The notes beneath the pieces were generated by a model. That model made no database searches. It saw only the letters and a list, made by a program, of their open reading frames with translations, and was not told where the DNA came from. This document shows positions 229 to 7,040 of a DNA stretch of 7,040 bases, piece after piece; the stretch's first letter is position 1, and each line of letters opens with the position of its first letter. A program made the position numbers and the translations under genes. Source of the DNA: Armatimonadota bacterium (GTDB lineage: Bacteria; Armatimonadota; Armatimonadia; Armatimonadales; Armatimonadaceae); contig JACMIS010000697.1 of the NCBI GenBank assembly GCA_014381035.1, forward strand, positions 1-7,040, given 5' to 3'.

Positions 229-546
229 TCAGAAGTTTAGTTGGAGCCCGGCCAGGATTGCGTTCTCGACGGATTGATTGCCGGCCGGGAATCGGACGGA
301 ACGCCCGAAATCGGTCCGCTCATAGTTCAACTGCGCTTTTAACTGGCGGTTCAAGTAGGCGTTGATCCCGATGGTCACCGCATCCGCTTTGTCCGCCGAG
401 GTCAAGGGGTCCGCCAAACCGAGGGAGAACGTGTCACTATCACCGCGGAACCGCGAGTAGCGCACGGCTAATTCGTAGGCACCCGCGACCGGTAGCCGGA
501 TCATAGGGGCGACGCGCGGCGGGGTTGCGAAACGATGTCGGCTCAC
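229..546 (-). CDS. C-terminal part of the frameshifted porin
   Basis: This is the second frame of the broken porin. Its nominal GTG at 546 is an artefact of the open frame, since the real coding part begins around 481-500. From there it encodes the last 80 to 85 residues: GAYELAVRYSRF, then strands including ADAVTIGINAYLNRQLKAQL and NYERTDFG, and finally AILAGLQLNF. In PF07396 porins this end holds the last barrel strands, and the terminal Phe is needed for recognition by the BAM complex. A ribosome starting here would make no exported protein, because there is no signal peptide. It should therefore be read as one gene with the upstream frame. Confidence 0.75.
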   Translation of the reverse strand: MSRHRFATPPRVAPMIRLPVAGAYELAVRYSRFRGDSDTFSLGLADPLTSADKADAVTIGINAYLNRQLKAQLNYERTDFGRSVRFPAGNQSVENAILAGLQLNF

Positions 547-1589
547 CCGTCAGCACGTACGTCGCCTGCAGGTTGAATCCGTTCGTGACCGCGCGCGTCG
601 CGGCGGTCCCTTTGCGGATCTCCTGACGCGTCGTGAAATGCTCGCCGAGAAATCCGAGCGGACCGGCGTAGTAGAAAAACTGCGGCGCGATCCGGGTCCG
701 TTCGCCGTCCCCGGTCACGCCGTCCGCATAACGAAAGAATGCGGACCGCCCTGCTGTGCGAAATGTCTGCCCGCTTAATGGTTCCGAAGTCGAACCGGCC
801 GTCGCCGCGATCCCGACACCCAGCCCGCGAAGCCGCGACGTGGGTTGGGCACGGAACGGTTGGTAGAACACGCGTGCCGCGAATTCGAGGGCACTGTCCG
901 CGTTGCCGTCCGCCGCGCCGTTATCCATGACGCCGTTGAATATCCCGAACTCCAACTCCAGCCCGTTTTTGCCGGGATCGGTCATCAGCATCAGCCCCAC
1001 ATCGCGGATCGGGATCACGTTCCCGGCGATGGATCGCTCCAGAAACGGCACGTCCGCCGCCATTTGTAACCGTTCCAGGCTGTACGGGACCTTGAATTTC
1101 CCGGTGCGCAGACGCAGTTGCGGTCGGAGTCGCAGATCGATATACGCGTCCTGTAAGACCGCCCGCCCTTCGCCGAACTCCGGCATGAGACGGAACTCGA
1201 CGAACTCAAACAGAACGCCGTCTAAAATAGGGCGCACACGGCGTAGGCTGAACGCGCTATTCCCCGTGCGCCCGTTTTCGGGGAACGCGTGTAGATACGA
1301 TTGGATGAGTCCCCCGACTTTCAGGCGTGACTTGCCGTCGGCGGATTGGATCGCGAACGGTCCGGGAGCCATAGGGGGTGCCGCCGTCGGGTAGGAGGGG
1401 GGCGGCACCGGTGCAACGGGCGGAGTCTGTCGGGCGACAGCCAGAGACGGTAGAAACAGGAAAAATCCGCACATCGCGAGGCGAGCGGAAGTAGTGACGG
1501 CAAGAGTGGAGCGCGTAGAATCCTTGACGACGCGACTGAAATTGACAGTAAACACTTTATAGTCGGTCGGAATAATATAGATTGTCAGG

Positions 1590-1618
1590 ATTATACACAC
1601 TTCCACACGAGTAAGCAA
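1590..1618 (-). promoter_or_regulatory. Sigma70-like promoter of the porin gene
   Basis: Read on the minus strand, TTGCTT (1618-1613) and a perfect TATAAT (1595-1590) are separated by 17 bases, the ideal spacing for a housekeeping sigma-factor promoter. Transcription would start near 1583. This lies in the 18-base gap and first codons after the M28 peptidase stop (1637-1639), so the porin can be transcribed separately from the peptidase. It also means the TTG at 1618 cannot be the start codon on this transcript. GTG 1555 (leader of about 28 bases) or ATG 1474 become the candidates, though neither has a clear Shine-Dalgarno. Confidence 0.55.
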
Positions 1619-3012: not shown

Positions 3013-3041
3013 GCCAGACACTAATTCATCGTGCCGTATCA

Positions 3042-3149: not shown

Positions 3150-3155
3150 AGGAGG
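3150..3155 (+). promoter_or_regulatory. Strong Shine-Dalgarno fixing the LPP20-like start
   Basis: AGGAGG at 3150-3155 is a full match to the Shine-Dalgarno consensus, 10 bases before ATG 3166. The same frame extends upstream to GTG 3031 and ATG 3052, but those starts have no such site and would bury the signal peptide behind about 40 polar residues. The start is therefore placed at 3166. Confidence 0.7.
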
Positions 3156-3165
3156 CTTCGCACCG

Positions 3166-4128
3166 ATGATTGTTTCGCTACTTTCACTTACCCTTTTTCT
3201 CGCCTACGCGCCGCAAGCAGCGACGATGGTGACAACCACGACAACCACGGTGCGCCGCGACACCGATCCGCTCGTGGATACCAGCGCGAACGGCAAAGCG
3301 CGCGTCAACTTCAACGCCGGTGTGATCAAGGCGACCGGTTCCGGTGCGCCGCCCGCCCCCGGCGTCGCCTCGAACGACGCGCAATCCCGACTGATGGCAC
3401 TCGGTGCGGCGAAAGCAGACGCCCTGCGGAATCTGGCGATGATGGTTTCCAGCGTACAGGTGACCAGCGAAACCCGCGTCAAAAACTTCCAGACCGAATC
3501 GGACATCGTGGAAACCCGTCTTGAGGCGGTCCTGCGAAATGCCCGCGTCATTCGCGAGGAGTTCAAGGATGGGATCGCCACGGTGACGGTAGAGATGGCA
3601 CTCTACGGCGATAACTCGGTCGCCGAAGCGGTATATCCAGAAATCTTGCCGGAAACACCCGCGTCGTCTGACTGGGAAGGACCACGTGAACCGGCTATCG
3701 CGTTGCCGCCCGCGACCGCGCCGCGACCGCTCCCGCCGCTTTCCCGCGAGCCGGGCTTGACTCCTGAATCAGACAACGGACCATTCACCTCGGTGATCGT
3801 GGACTGCCGGGGAATGGGCATCGAAGCCGCAATGGCTCCGAAACTGATGGACGATTCCGGGAACGAAGTGTACGGCACGGTGCGCGTTTCCGCCGATTAC
3901 GCGATTGCCGTCGGTATCGTCGGGTATCCGCGCTCCATGTCGGAAGCGATTCGCTCGAAACGTGCCGGATCGCACCCGTTGATCGTTCGTGCGACGGGGG
4001 CAGGGGACAAGCACCGCTATAACCCGACCATCTCGCGACGCGATGCCGAGCGTATCCTTTCAGCCAATTCCCGCGACCACTTTTTAGAGCGAACCTCGGT
4101 TGTGTTTCTGGTAGACCCGTTGAAGTAG
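3166..4128 (+). CDS. Exported LPP20/FlgP-like protein
   Basis: The product has 320 residues. Residues 1-19 are a signal peptide (MIVSLLSLTLFLAYAPQAA) without a lipobox Cys, so it is likely periplasmic and soluble rather than a lipoprotein. A Thr-rich stretch (residues 23-28) follows. Residues about 44-147 match the pattern of LPP20-type domains: an Ala-rich helix (AQSRLMALGAAKADALRNLA), then VQVTSETRVKNFQTESDIVE, then VIREEFKDGIATVTVEMALYG. A proline-rich linker (about 158-205) leads to a second domain (206-317). That domain has SVIVDCRGMGIEAAMAPKL, DSGNEVYG, YAIAVGIVGYPRSMSEA, NPTISRRDAERIL and ERTSVVFLVD, an arrangement I recall in bacterial LPP20/FlgP-related proteins. Vibrio FlgP belongs to this family and builds an outer-membrane ring around the flagellum. 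The next gene, a CsgG/FlgT-like protein, starts 20 bases downstream, so the two are probably one operon. The exact role is inferred; no flagellar gene is visible. Confidence 0.75.
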   Translation: MIVSLLSLTLFLAYAPQAATMVTTTTTTVRRDTDPLVDTSANGKARVNFNAGVIKATGSGAPPAPGVASNDAQSRLMALGAAKADALRNLAMMVSSVQVTSETRVKNFQTESDIVETRLEAVLRNARVIREEFKDGIATVTVEMALYGDNSVAEAVYPEILPETPASSDWEGPREPAIALPPATAPRPLPPLSREPGLTPESDNGPFTSVIVDCRGMGIEAAMAPKLMDDSGNEVYGTVRVSADYAIAVGIVGYPRSMSEAIRSKRAGSHPLIVRATGAGDKHRYNPTISRRDAERILSANSRDHFLERTSVVFLVDPLK

Positions 4129-4148
4129 AAAGACAGTAGGTGCAGACT

Positions 4149-6194
4149 ATGCCAATCCGACTCCGCGCCCTGACGCTCTGCGCCGTTTACGCGGCACTGC
4201 TTTTTCTCGTGTCCGCTCCCGTTTATGGGGGACGGGCACGAGAGGGTGACGTACTGAAGATCTTCAATAATCAACGGGTGTACGTGATCAGCAATGTGGA
4301 AGCCGACGCTCCCGCACTTGCCGACCTACTCCTTGCCGACTGTCCGGTAAAGGAGCGCCGCGTGTTGACACTAAACGAGTGGAACGCCCTACCGAAGGAG
4401 ACGCGCTGGTATGTGACCTGTGTCTACCTGATCGACCGGGAGCGAATCGCGCCGTGGGCGCAGGTGCCGCTCAATTGCCGCGCCGAAACCACGGAAAACT
4501 GGATCGAAGTGATTCGTACGGGGCGTGACTGGGGCATCGCGCATGATATTACCGTTTCCGCGCCCGACCTGTCGAACCTGCGCCGCGCCATTAAAGCATT
4601 TCGTAATTTGAAGGAATCGCCGCGCAAACCGCTCACCGAGACCGTGCGCTCGCTCGCCGTGATACCAATCGGCGACGGCGCGGAACAAGCGGCGCAACCG
4701 TTCCTCGGCGAGACGCCGCGCGGGACACGCCCGCCACACCATTTACCGGTCGGGGAGTACGAATCGCGCCAGGGGCGTTTGACCGCCACGGACGAGGTAG
4801 TGTTGCTGGATCGCTCGTCGGCGGTCGCGACCGCGATTCCGACGGCGTTCGCGCCGGTGTCGGACAAACTGCTGACACCGGGCGGGGACGTGTTCGCGTG
4901 GCGCGAAACCAAGCCGGGCGGCTACGTCCGCGCCTATATTTCTGCCCCCACCACCGGAATGCTTCGTGCGGTCCTGCAGAAAAGCGAGGGTAACCTGCTT
5001 TCGTTAGCCGCGTTCGAGAAGCCGACCGTGTTGGCGACCGCCCGCGACCTGCGCCCGGTGCGGCGTGTCGCGGTGGCAACGATTGGCGGCGAACGCATTG
5101 ACGACGCGGCGGCGAACCGGATCGCGGGGCTGGCGGCAAGCGAACTACGCGGGCTGAATGCGTTCGAGGTGCTGGAGCGAACCGCATTGACTGCTGTTTT
5201 AGCCGAGATCGCGCTGGATCAGGCGGGTCTGACCCGGGGCGCGAACCGGGCAAAAGTCCGCCAGTTAGCGGCGGCGGACGCACTGCTCATCGTGGATCTA
5301 TCGCGCTCCGAAGGCGGTACGGACTATTCCTCGTCTGCGAAGCGAACCACGCCGCCGTTGCCGGGACCGCCGCGCCGTCCGTCCGAGCCGTCGCGCCTCA
5401 AAACCGATTTGAACGTCGGCGGCAAAGACAGCGAGATCGTGCGCGTGGTCGCGGAAAGTCTGCTGAGGGGCGTCGTGGGCACCAAAACCGATGCCGAATA
5501 TTCCTCCGCACTGAGGGAGTACCGCCGTAGCACCTTGCCACTCTGGGAACGGTCCGTCGCCGACTACAACGCCCGCGCCGATTCGCGGCAGATCGAATGG
5601 CGACAGACTATCACGGCGCGAAGCACGGTACGCGTCGCCGGTTCCCTGCGCCTCGTTGATCTGGCGGACGGTCTGGTGCTCTGGGAGGTGCCTATCGCGT
5701 CGAGTGACAAAGAGGAACGCACTCAACAGACCCGAACCGCTTACTCCACCGGCGAATCGTCCACCGCGCCCGACGCCAGCGATCTGCCCAGTATAAACGG
5801 CGAGATTCCCGGCGAACTGCTTGCCCGCACCGCCGAAACCGCGGTCGCCGAGTCGCTCAAATCGCTCCCCGCGACCGCGCTTCTGCCGGTCGCGACAGCA
5901 TCCTCTGCCGCGCTCGCACCAAGCCCCGACCCAGCCGAAGAAAAGGAGGAGGCTATCAGTGGAAAGGTGATCGACGTGGACGGGGGGACGGTCTTAATAG
6001 GACTCGGCGCGTCGGACCGGGTAAAGATCGGCGACACACTGGAAATCGCCACCGCCACCGGAACAAAACTGCGCGTCGTCATTCGCCGCGTCCGCCCGCG
6101 CACCTGTGACGCGACATTCGTCGCCAGCACCAATCCGGCGCACCGGACCCGTGTGCAGATCGGCGATGTGGTGAAGCCATTCGTCAAGCCGTAA
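4149..6194 (+). CDS. Exported CsgG/FlgT-like envelope protein
   Basis: The product has 681 residues from ATG 4149, preferred over GTG 4140 because AGGTG at 4138-4142 is well placed. The signal peptide is about residues 1-26 (LTLCAVYAALLFLVSAPVYG), with no Cys at the cleavage site. Residues about 30-165 form an N-terminal domain I do not recognise, with three Cys (65, 91, 110). A CsgG-like region spans about 304-577: RRVAVATIGG, then AFEVLERTALTAVLAEIALD and QAGLTRGANRAKVRQLAAAD, ALLIVDLSRSEGG, and later VRVAGSLRLVDLADGLVLWE. CsgG is an outer-membrane secretion channel subunit, and the same fold occurs in FlgO/FlgT ring proteins. A Pro/Ser-rich insert (about 394-418) interrupts it. After a low-complexity Ala/Pro/Glu linker, residues about 604-640 (SGKVIDVDGGTVLIGLGASD, then KIGDTLEI) match the FlgT C-terminal type of small beta domain. 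The gene is tightly spaced on both sides. Domain type is fairly clear; cellular function is inferred. Confidence 0.7.
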   Translation: MPIRLRALTLCAVYAALLFLVSAPVYGGRAREGDVLKIFNNQRVYVISNVEADAPALADLLLADCPVKERRVLTLNEWNALPKETRWYVTCVYLIDRERIAPWAQVPLNCRAETTENWIEVIRTGRDWGIAHDITVSAPDLSNLRRAIKAFRNLKESPRKPLTETVRSLAVIPIGDGAEQAAQPFLGETPRGTRPPHHLPVGEYESRQGRLTATDEVVLLDRSSAVATAIPTAFAPVSDKLLTPGGDVFAWRETKPGGYVRAYISAPTTGMLRAVLQKSEGNLLSLAAFEKPTVLATARDLRPVRRVAVATIGGERIDDAAANRIAGLAASELRGLNAFEVLERTALTAVLAEIALDQAGLTRGANRAKVRQLAAADALLIVDLSRSEGGTDYSSSAKRTTPPLPGPPRRPSEPSRLKTDLNVGGKDSEIVRVVAESLLRGVVGTKTDAEYSSALREYRRSTLPLWERSVADYNARADSRQIEWRQTITARSTVRVAGSLRLVDLADGLVLWEVPIASSDKEERTQQTRTAYSTGESSTAPDASDLPSINGEIPGELLARTAETAVAESLKSLPATALLPVATASSAALAPSPDPAEEKEEAISGKVIDVDGGTVLIGLGASDRVKIGDTLEIATATGTKLRVVIRRVRPRTCDATFVASTNPAHRTRVQIGDVVKPFVKP

Positions 6195-6205
6195 AATAGA
6201 AACTA

Positions 6206-6778
6206 ATGGCAAGCACAACAGATAAAAAACTGCCGCAACCCTGGCACACGGAGTCGTTTCATCGCGCTCGCTTGGTAGGGCTATCGGCACTTATCGTTTT
6301 CCTGAGTGTTAGTGCTATCACCGATGGCAAATATCACGGCATGATTGTCTTCGGAGTAATGTTCTTAGTTGCGGATATGAAATCCCTTGGAGATTGGAAA
6401 CGGAGGACTGTTATCACTGCGCCACTACTGGCTTACGGCGCGTTCGGAAGCAAAGAACAACATCAAAACTTGTGGATAGCTATCGGTGGATTCTGCAGCA
6501 TGCTTTTGATAGCAATGGTCACATTTGGGCAGGAGATTATGGATAGCTCCGAAAACCTGTTGCTACGAATCGTCGCATTTTTCGGCATCAACCTGTTCGG
6601 TTGGTTTCTGATACCCTGGCTAAAAGAAACACTTCCTATGATTATTCGCTACTACTCTCCCTCAAATGTAGGGAGTATTCTTGTTTCCTCATCTACTGTC
6701 ACCGCATCGCCGCAAACGCAACCGACTCCTCAAACCCATTCCCAACGGCTACTCGCAGGAAGCGGTATCCGCCCATGA
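6206..6778 (+). CDS. Small multi-pass membrane protein of unknown function
   Basis: The product has 190 residues and I do not recognise the family. Hydrophobic segments are at about 22-38, 43-57, 90-108 and 119-139, with a weaker one at 68-80, giving four or five membrane passes. They are followed by a Ser/Thr/Pro/Gln-rich tail (about 160-190). Short charged loops (DMKSLGDWKRR, GSKEQHQN) separate the segments. The ATG lies 11 bases after the previous stop with no real Shine-Dalgarno (AAAATAGAAACTA), so translation may be coupled. Its base composition differs from its neighbours: 6301-6360 has 27 G/C of 60, while 5101-5160 in the preceding gene has 43 of 60. This may reflect transfer, recent insertion into the operon, or membrane-protein codon needs. 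Its stop overlaps the next start (ATGA), which supports co-transcription with the exported proteins on both sides. Confidence 0.65.
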   Translation: MASTTDKKLPQPWHTESFHRARLVGLSALIVFLSVSAITDGKYHGMIVFGVMFLVADMKSLGDWKRRTVITAPLLAYGAFGSKEQHQNLWIAIGGFCSMLLIAMVTFGQEIMDSSENLLLRIVAFFGINLFGWFLIPWLKETLPMIIRYYSPSNVGSILVSSSTVTASPQTQPTPQTHSQRLLAGSGIRP

Positions 6779-7040
6779 AAAAACCATTCGCTCTAGCCAT
6801 TTGCGTATGCCTTGCCGCTCTCCCCGTGCGAAGCACGTTCGGCGAGCGTATAGCGGCTGAAGCCGATTTCGCGGAAGCCACCGAGCGACCAATTTCAATT
6901 GCTCACAAACCGATTGCTCACCCTGCAATCGCTCGCACGGACAACGCTACCGATTCGCAAATCGTGCTCGCCGAAGGACGCGCCGCCGTGGGACCCGCCG
7001 AAACCGGAGGCGCACTCGCCGCGAAACAAGCCGCCGTCGC
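6775..7040 (+). CDS. Start of an exported protein, probably LPP20/FlgT-N-like, truncated by the right edge
   Basis: ATG 6775 overlaps the previous stop as ATGA, and the frame stays open to the window end (88 codons plus two bases). Residues 1-23 form a clear signal peptide (MKKPFALAICVCLAALP, cut near STFG). The segment after it is low-complexity, with near-repeats PISIAHKPIAHPAIAR; DNA repeat ATTGCTCAC occurs at 6898 and 6913. The last visible part reads QIVLAEGRAAVG and then GALAAKQAAVA. This resembles the opening of LPP20/FlgT-N-type domains, where an 'aeGrA' strand is followed by an Ala-rich helix of Ar..Ai..A type. If correct, the operon holds at least three proteins of this envelope family. 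The evidence is only a short stretch, so the family call is tentative; the gene itself is well supported. Confidence 0.6.
   Translation, partial: MKKPFALAICVCLAALPVRSTFGERIAAEADFAEATERPISIAHKPIAHPAIARTDNATDSQIVLAEGRAAVGPAETGGALAAKQAAV

Follow-up and report, generated by a model that had tools for sequence, protein, structure and literature searches.

Flagellar-accessory modules in a conserved gene cluster of Armatimonadota genomes with and without detected flagellar genes

Three genes (g1, g2 and g4) of a compact cluster on contig JACMIS010000697.1 of an Armatimonadota bacterium code for proteins built from FlgP-, FlgT- and CsgG-like modules, and their order is conserved in related genomes. 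The window, i.e. the whole stretch of DNA that we analysed, is the entire 7,040-base contig, in which g4 is incomplete. Because some relatives without detected flagellar genes retain these genes as well, they probably serve a different structural purpose in the envelope. We tentatively propose, as a plausible reading that falls somewhat short of probable, that g1, g2 and g4 code for a secreted, periplasmic, ring- or disk-like scaffold of the outer membrane, made of flagellar-accessory modules and not dependent on a flagellum.

A first-pass annotation of the window had described four tightly spaced genes on the plus strand with no flagellar gene in view. Both statements hold within the window: gaps of 20 and 11 bases separate g1 from g2 and g2 from g3, and g3 and g4 overlap by 4 bases. 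The features discussed below are as follows.

3166..4128, plus strand: gene 1 (g1), 320 amino acids (aa); signal-peptide-like N-terminus, FlgP/LPP20 (SHS2-like) domain, proline-rich linker and Tp0624 domain 2 (D2)-like domain
3331..3612, plus strand: FlgP-like domain of g1 (residues 56-149), single-sequence match to 9hmf_C (E = 1.5e-6)
3751..4116, plus strand: Tp0624 domain-2-like domain of g1 (residues 196-317), profile and single-sequence matches to 5jir_B
4149..6194, plus strand: gene 2 (g2), 681 aa; tandem alpha/beta domain, CsgG/PelC/FlgT-M-type domain and FlgT_C-like barrel
4236..5048, plus strand: g2 N-terminus (residues 30-300), a pair of related alpha/beta units without a Pfam match
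5046..6191, plus strand: FlgT middle and C-like part of g2 (residues 300-681)
6206..6778, plus strand: gene 3 (g3), 190 aa; three hydrophobic segments by simple scan
6775..7040, plus strand: 5' part of gene 4 (g4), cut by the contig end
L001:8057-9208: full-length g4 in the related locus L001, 383 aa; FlgT N- and M-type domains and a C-terminal domain

A longer g1 frame opens at 3031; we placed the start at 3166 because a GGAGG motif (3151-3155) precedes it. An in-frame GTG codon is found at 4140, ahead of the g2 start at 4149.

Modular composition of g1, g2 and g4

The LPP20/FlgP and CsgG/FlgT labels of the first-pass annotation stood up well in profile and fold comparisons, which returned family and fold matches, and were weak in single-sequence hidden Markov model searches. 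Against Pfam, window g1 scored under the curated cut-offs for both FlgT_N (E = 4.1e-5, 24.5 bits, cut-off 28.8) and LPP20 (E = 2.4e-4), as did its L001 homologue for FlgT_N (28.0), and two close g1 relatives, P0055 and P0057, bear precomputed LPP20 and FlgT_N labels. Over the N-terminal domain, a g1 profile built from 33 sequences matched five PDB sequences, namely 9hmf_C (E = 1.4e-15, entry name 'Lipoprotein, putative'), 8z5n_2 ('FlgP', E = 2.7e-8), 9yds_Aa (named both 'Lipoprotein' and 'FlgP', E = 1.9e-6), and 9yfg_Ha and 9yec_Fa, both named merely 'Lipoprotein'. Window g1 alone reached 9hmf_C at the E-value listed above. According to extracts from PMC12222027, 9HMF is the Campylobacter jejuni motor scaffold, and ring formation in the FlgP/FlgT family correlates with the presence of residues inserted after the SHS2 helix and before the second strand. 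Chain 9hmf_C is presumably FlgP. The alignment of g1 with this chain is gap-free from the helix onward and spans the ring-hairpin insert stretch of FlgP, which is where the ring-forming hairpin of g1 would lie, as judged from the alignment. The N-domains of g1 and g4 are themselves homologous (hhalign probability 96, E = 4.7e-9), and their alignment is gap-free over the same helix-onward part. No cysteine, hence no lipobox, was seen by eye in the N-terminal part of window g1, and a lipobox regular expression was positive in 7 of the 120 listed g1 relatives.

Beyond its proline-rich linker, g1 matches Treponema Tp0624 (5jir_B, E = 9.4e-17 by profile and 2.3e-5 by single sequence). After allowing for chain numbering, the matched stretch corresponds to domain 2 as delimited in PMC5104382, a 2016 study that reported no structural analogue for this domain.

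In g2, Pfam recognised CsgG above its cut-off (23.2 bits, cut-off 20.8) and FlgT_C below it (E = 0.0078, 17.1 bits, cut-off 27). The best PDB fold match of the g2 model (Foldseek) was FlgT 3w1e (E = 1.1e-10), followed by chain 8z5n_0 of the LPHT ring (E = 5.0e-10), which we take to be FlgT. Fold comparison assigned the FlgT-like part of g2 to the M and C domains and its middle domain to the CsgG/PelC fold class. The large unknown N-terminal domain noted in the first-pass annotation corresponds to residues about 30-300 of g2, for which no Pfam family was found; this part is internally duplicated (hhalign probability 85, E = 6.2e-6), and among the matches listed for the whole g2 model no fold match covers it. 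The only PDB match of the g2 profile, a kinesin (E = 0.11-0.12), was judged to be due to chance. In locus L049, two neighbouring open reading frames (G061:C237, 7186-7677 and 9352-9843) match the g2 profile solely at positions 136-305. Since these matches are confined to the N-terminal alpha/beta part, this domain may also occur without the CsgG-like part.

The g4 fragment in the window matched no Pfam family. Its full-length L001 homologue gave matches below cut-off to FlgT_N (E = 0.049, 14.6 bits, cut-off 28.8) and LipL46 (E = 3.8e-4, 19.2 bits, cut-off 400), and a distant relative in L048 exceeded the FlgT_N cut-off (29.6 versus 28.8). The best Foldseek matches of g4 were again FlgT 3w1e (E = 3.1e-7) and 8z5n_0 (E = 4.2e-7), here over the N and M domains, with another domain at the C-terminus. 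Against the PDB, the g4 profile reached 9hmf_C with no better than E = 0.05, or 0.0032 once more distant relatives were added.

Conservation of gene order in Armatimonadota

When genome contigs were scanned with g2, a single relative emerged, the Armatimonadota metagenome-assembled genome locus L001 (genome G001), which holds the same four genes. Identity between the window and L001 is 92.5% for g1, 89% for g2, 86% for a divergent M28 peptidase and 69% for the first 88 residues of g4. Protein searches found at least 54 relatives of g2, at least 189 of g1 (120 listed) and at least 17 of g4; among the few for which names were shown, the named relatives are Armatimonadota, with P0002 and P0098 additionally labelled Akkermansiaceae and Cytophagales. 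We then searched 201 genomes of the phylum, scoring at most five candidates per genome. At E ≤ 1e-3, g2 matched 40 of them, six with E-values below 1e-100, and an order-level search recovered the same six close carriers among 19 genomes.

All six close carriers hold g1, g2 and g4. The first-pass annotation had left conservation of the gene order to be checked, and the order g1-g2-g4 is indeed conserved: it lies on one contig in three carriers, namely G001 (L001, with g3 inserted), G042 (L034) and G080 (L035), and in G119, G094 and G145 every break falls at contig ends. In G119, g1 and g2 are 71% and 66% identical to the window and g4 is 64% identical to L001. The trio also stays together, with protein identities of about 38-58%, in L034, L035, L036, L038, L060 and L067; annotated flanks differ among L034, L035, L037 and L038, and an M28 peptidase gene is common to the window, L001 and L037. 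More distant relatives hold a g2-g4 pair (L041, L043, L044, L045 and L048), a g1-g4 pair (L068, L069 and L070) or a run of a CsgG/D2 gene, g4 and g1 (L057 in G045 and L065 in G023). Counting as neighbours genes on the same strand within 3 kb by coordinates, g1 and g4 matches are adjacent in 31 of the 201 genomes, and some gene pair occurs in 44, of which 33 have the flagellar family FlgI and 11 do not. These pair counts are somewhat high because of cross-matches of the shared N-domain (at least in G047, G064, G145 and G154), while the limit on candidates scored per genome pushes them the opposite way.

The D2-like domain also occurs in other settings. It lies behind a CsgG/FlgO-like domain in a single protein at L057:8008-9339 and L065:8549-10012, a fusion also suggested in G055, G065, G073 and G095 by equal frame lengths of both matches, and it forms small D2-only proteins at L054:12924-13466 and L055:15675-16211. 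From these fusions and stand-alone forms, D2 looks like a mobile envelope module.

The trio could instead consist of separate periplasmic proteins with common folds, which share a transcript without forming a single ring and might, for instance, activate or stabilise enzymes acting on peptidoglycan or the outer membrane. The folds are generic, the CsgG, TolB_N, LpoB and FlgO-type families overlap in Pfam for the L057 proteins, and Helicobacter pylori HP1456 (Lpp20), which shares the fold, was lost without effect on flagella or motility according to extracts from PMC11756786. However, the trio remains together in the six loci at about 38-58% identity although their flanks mostly differ, and g1 carries the FlgP-type insert stretch. 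Both observations favour a shared assembly, and we consider separate proteins unlikely.

A further possibility is an export portal, in which g2, and perhaps g4, would sit as a CsgG- or PelC-like ring on top of a pore that carries polysaccharide or protein across the outer membrane, of which a curli-like system had been one suggestion of the first-pass annotation. We had to abandon the latter: CsgF and curlin repeats, the curli components searched for, were each found in none of the six close carriers, with an E. coli control positive for both. For export in general, g2 surpasses the Pfam cut-off for CsgG, but window g2 (P0001) was negative by the lipobox regular expression, which was positive in 2 of 54 listed g2 relatives, and no lipobox was seen by eye in g4 of the window or L001. 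Moreover, the predicted structure of g2 places helices (428-443 and 448-479) between long strands, where beta hairpins would be expected. Apart from a porin gene, annotated flanks contain no pore, synthase or exporter, the other flanks being unannotated and a PelB-like pore not having been searched for. An export portal thus appears quite improbable.

Occurrence with and without flagellar genes

FlgI was detected in 120 of the 201 genomes and FHIPEP, a family that also covers type III secretion proteins, exceeded its cut-off in 132. Both are absent from G001 (the closest carrier), G042, G119 and G094, and both are present in G080 and G145. The rod family Flg_bb_rod is likewise missing from the first group (0 of 4) and found in the second (2 of 2). 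The check for flagellar genes in related genomes proposed by the first-pass annotation thus detected none of three families in four of six close carriers; as far as these genomes are complete, the trio can therefore occur in the absence of such flagellar genes.

Several observations, some of which weigh against independence from the flagellum, would fit an ancestral, flagellar role as the Armatimonadota analogue of the H-ring or basal disk, of which the window's relatives keep a remnant (possibly fading) after flagellar loss. The modules match FlgP and FlgT, two of the six close carriers are flagellated, and g1 relatives are commoner where FlgI is present: 50 of 65 carriers are FlgI-positive, compared to 70 of 136 non-carriers (P = 7e-4). 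A g1-like (D1-D2) gene also lies about 5-10 kb from flhA in L054 (G021), L055 (G035) and L056 (G162), with MoeA- and cyclophilin-family genes on the opposite strand between the two in G021. Against such a role, g2 is not associated with FlgI (25 of 40 carriers versus 95 of 161 non-carriers, P = 0.72), the genes are well conserved in carriers lacking all three families, as the G119 identities illustrate, and Pfam found no flagellar family in the examined flanks of L034, L035, L037, L038, L057 and L065. For g4, the corresponding counts were 36 of 51 carriers and 84 of 150 non-carriers (P = 0.07); all three P values ignore the relatedness of genomes. We regard the flagellar analogue as improbable. 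Of the non-flagellar complex outlined in the first-pass annotation, the FlgP-, FlgT- and CsgG-type modules, the gene order and the presence in four of six close carriers without detected flagellar genes are supported; the curli-like function and the embedded membrane protein (see below) are not.

Gene 3 and the surrounding sequence

The first-pass annotation had taken the membrane protein encoded by g3 as an embedded component. We rejected g3 as a core component, as it is missing from the g2-g4 junction in L034, L035 and L036, matches 2 of the 201 genomes (G001 and, as a stop-interrupted remnant at a contig start, G119) and diverges fast. The window and L001 copies are 37% identical, compared to 86-92.5% for g1, g2 and the M28 peptidase and 69% for the start of g4. 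DNA similarity ends about 70 bases into g3 and returns about 60 bases before its end, so that between 6206-6778 and L001:7485-8060 the first ~20 and last ~15 codons are conserved and the middle is strongly diverged, unlike its neighbours. A simple hydropathy scan found three segments in window g3 and one in L001 g3. No Pfam family exceeded its cut-off, and a match to an L-lysine exporter (E = 0.0025, 17.6 bits, cut-off 213.65) was judged to be due to chance. Gene 3 is a clade-specific, fast-changing and probably dispensable insertion.

Pfam identified a porin O/P gene in the window, which supports the presence of an outer membrane. LptD (PF04453) had no match in any of the six close carriers, so a lipopolysaccharide-type membrane is not supported. 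The porin frame (440-1618, minus strand) ends early, its C-terminal part likely lying in another frame (229-546); by eye, the L001 homologue (1328-2791) appears to leave frame elsewhere, which may reflect sequencing error or decay. Downstream of the operon, L001:12180-14042 codes for a solute-binding-like protein (weak NMT1 match, below cut-off) that ends in an OmpA domain, and genes around it resemble ABC transporter parts by sequence. No RNA families were found. In L001, terminator-like sequences numbered 8 against a mean of 6.6 in shuffles, and promoter-like sequences 4 against 1.2 (standard deviation 1.1), none of which lies on the plus strand directly ahead of g1.

Discussion

The proposed scaffold would be assembled as follows. 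Each of g1, g2 and g4 would be exported by an N-terminal signal peptide, as suggested by a hydrophobic stretch seen by eye and by hydropathy. The g1 protein may polymerise sideways through its FlgP-like SHS2 domain and the hairpin insert, the stretch for which is present in the sequence. The g4 protein could join through its homologous N-domain, adding a CsgG/PelC/FlgT-M-type domain, and g2 would contribute a second such domain and the FlgT_C-like barrel, its tandem alpha/beta domain possibly facing a client. Made from modules also used in the FlgP basal disk and the FlgT H-ring, the scaffold would lie against the periplasmic side of the outer membrane, and might brace or centre either this membrane or a structure that spans the envelope. 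Ring formation by the three proteins is predicted from sequence likeness.

A bolder and somewhat doubtful proposal is that the trio represents a flagellum-independent Armatimonadota ring machine, with FlgP and FlgT modules distributed over three genes alongside the tandem alpha/beta domain and D2, and that this set and the H-rings and basal disks of flagella share an origin in an envelope-ring toolkit of general use. Basal disks and H-rings are usually seen as motor parts; if the proposal holds, flagella would have taken over their accessory rings from such a toolkit, and the rings would not have been invented for motility. Conserved modules without detected flagellar genes offer a system in which to ask what rings do without rotation and where they came from. 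The recognised modules are all known; what is new is how they are arranged, together with the tandem alpha/beta domain and a genomic context in which flagellar genes were not detected. In g1, D2 of Tp0624 now stands next to a FlgP-like domain, in an operon of a bacterium that is not a spirochete. Among the papers searched, none combined LPP20, CsgG and operon, none mentioned an LPHT ring, and two, which by their titles deal with Dehalococcoidia and SAR202, brought together Armatimonadota, flagellar and outer membrane.

Among known systems, FlgP, which forms the Campylobacter basal disk and is a ring lipoprotein in Vibrio, shares with g1 the SHS2/LPP20 domain and the ring-hairpin stretch aligned without gaps. 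Unlike FlgP, g1 has no lipobox, carries a Tp0624 D2-like domain and is found in genomes without detected flagellar genes. FlgT of the H-ring, the best fold match of both g2 (M and C part) and g4 (N and M part), contains its three domains in one protein, whereas here N-, M- and C-type domains are split over g2 and g4 and accompanied by extra domains. CsgG and PelC belong to the fold class of g2, which differs from them in lacking a lipid anchor, in that no CsgF or curlin partners were found and, in the model, in having helices in place of beta hairpins. Tp0624 of Treponema (PDB 5jir) resembles the C-terminal domain of g1 through its domain 2, but its OmpA-like domain 3 has no counterpart in g1. 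PMC5104382 reports D2 only together with D1, whereas Armatimonadota also have stand-alone D2 proteins and proteins in which D2 follows a CsgG-like domain. Finally, the H. pylori HP1456/HP1454 operon, likened here by description and not by sequence, likewise encodes Lpp20-fold proteins together, and the normal motility after HP1456 loss is a precedent for an Lpp20-type protein that motility does not require, although extracts from PMC11756786 describe its products as still interacting with FlgP and FapH, in a bacterium that has flagella.
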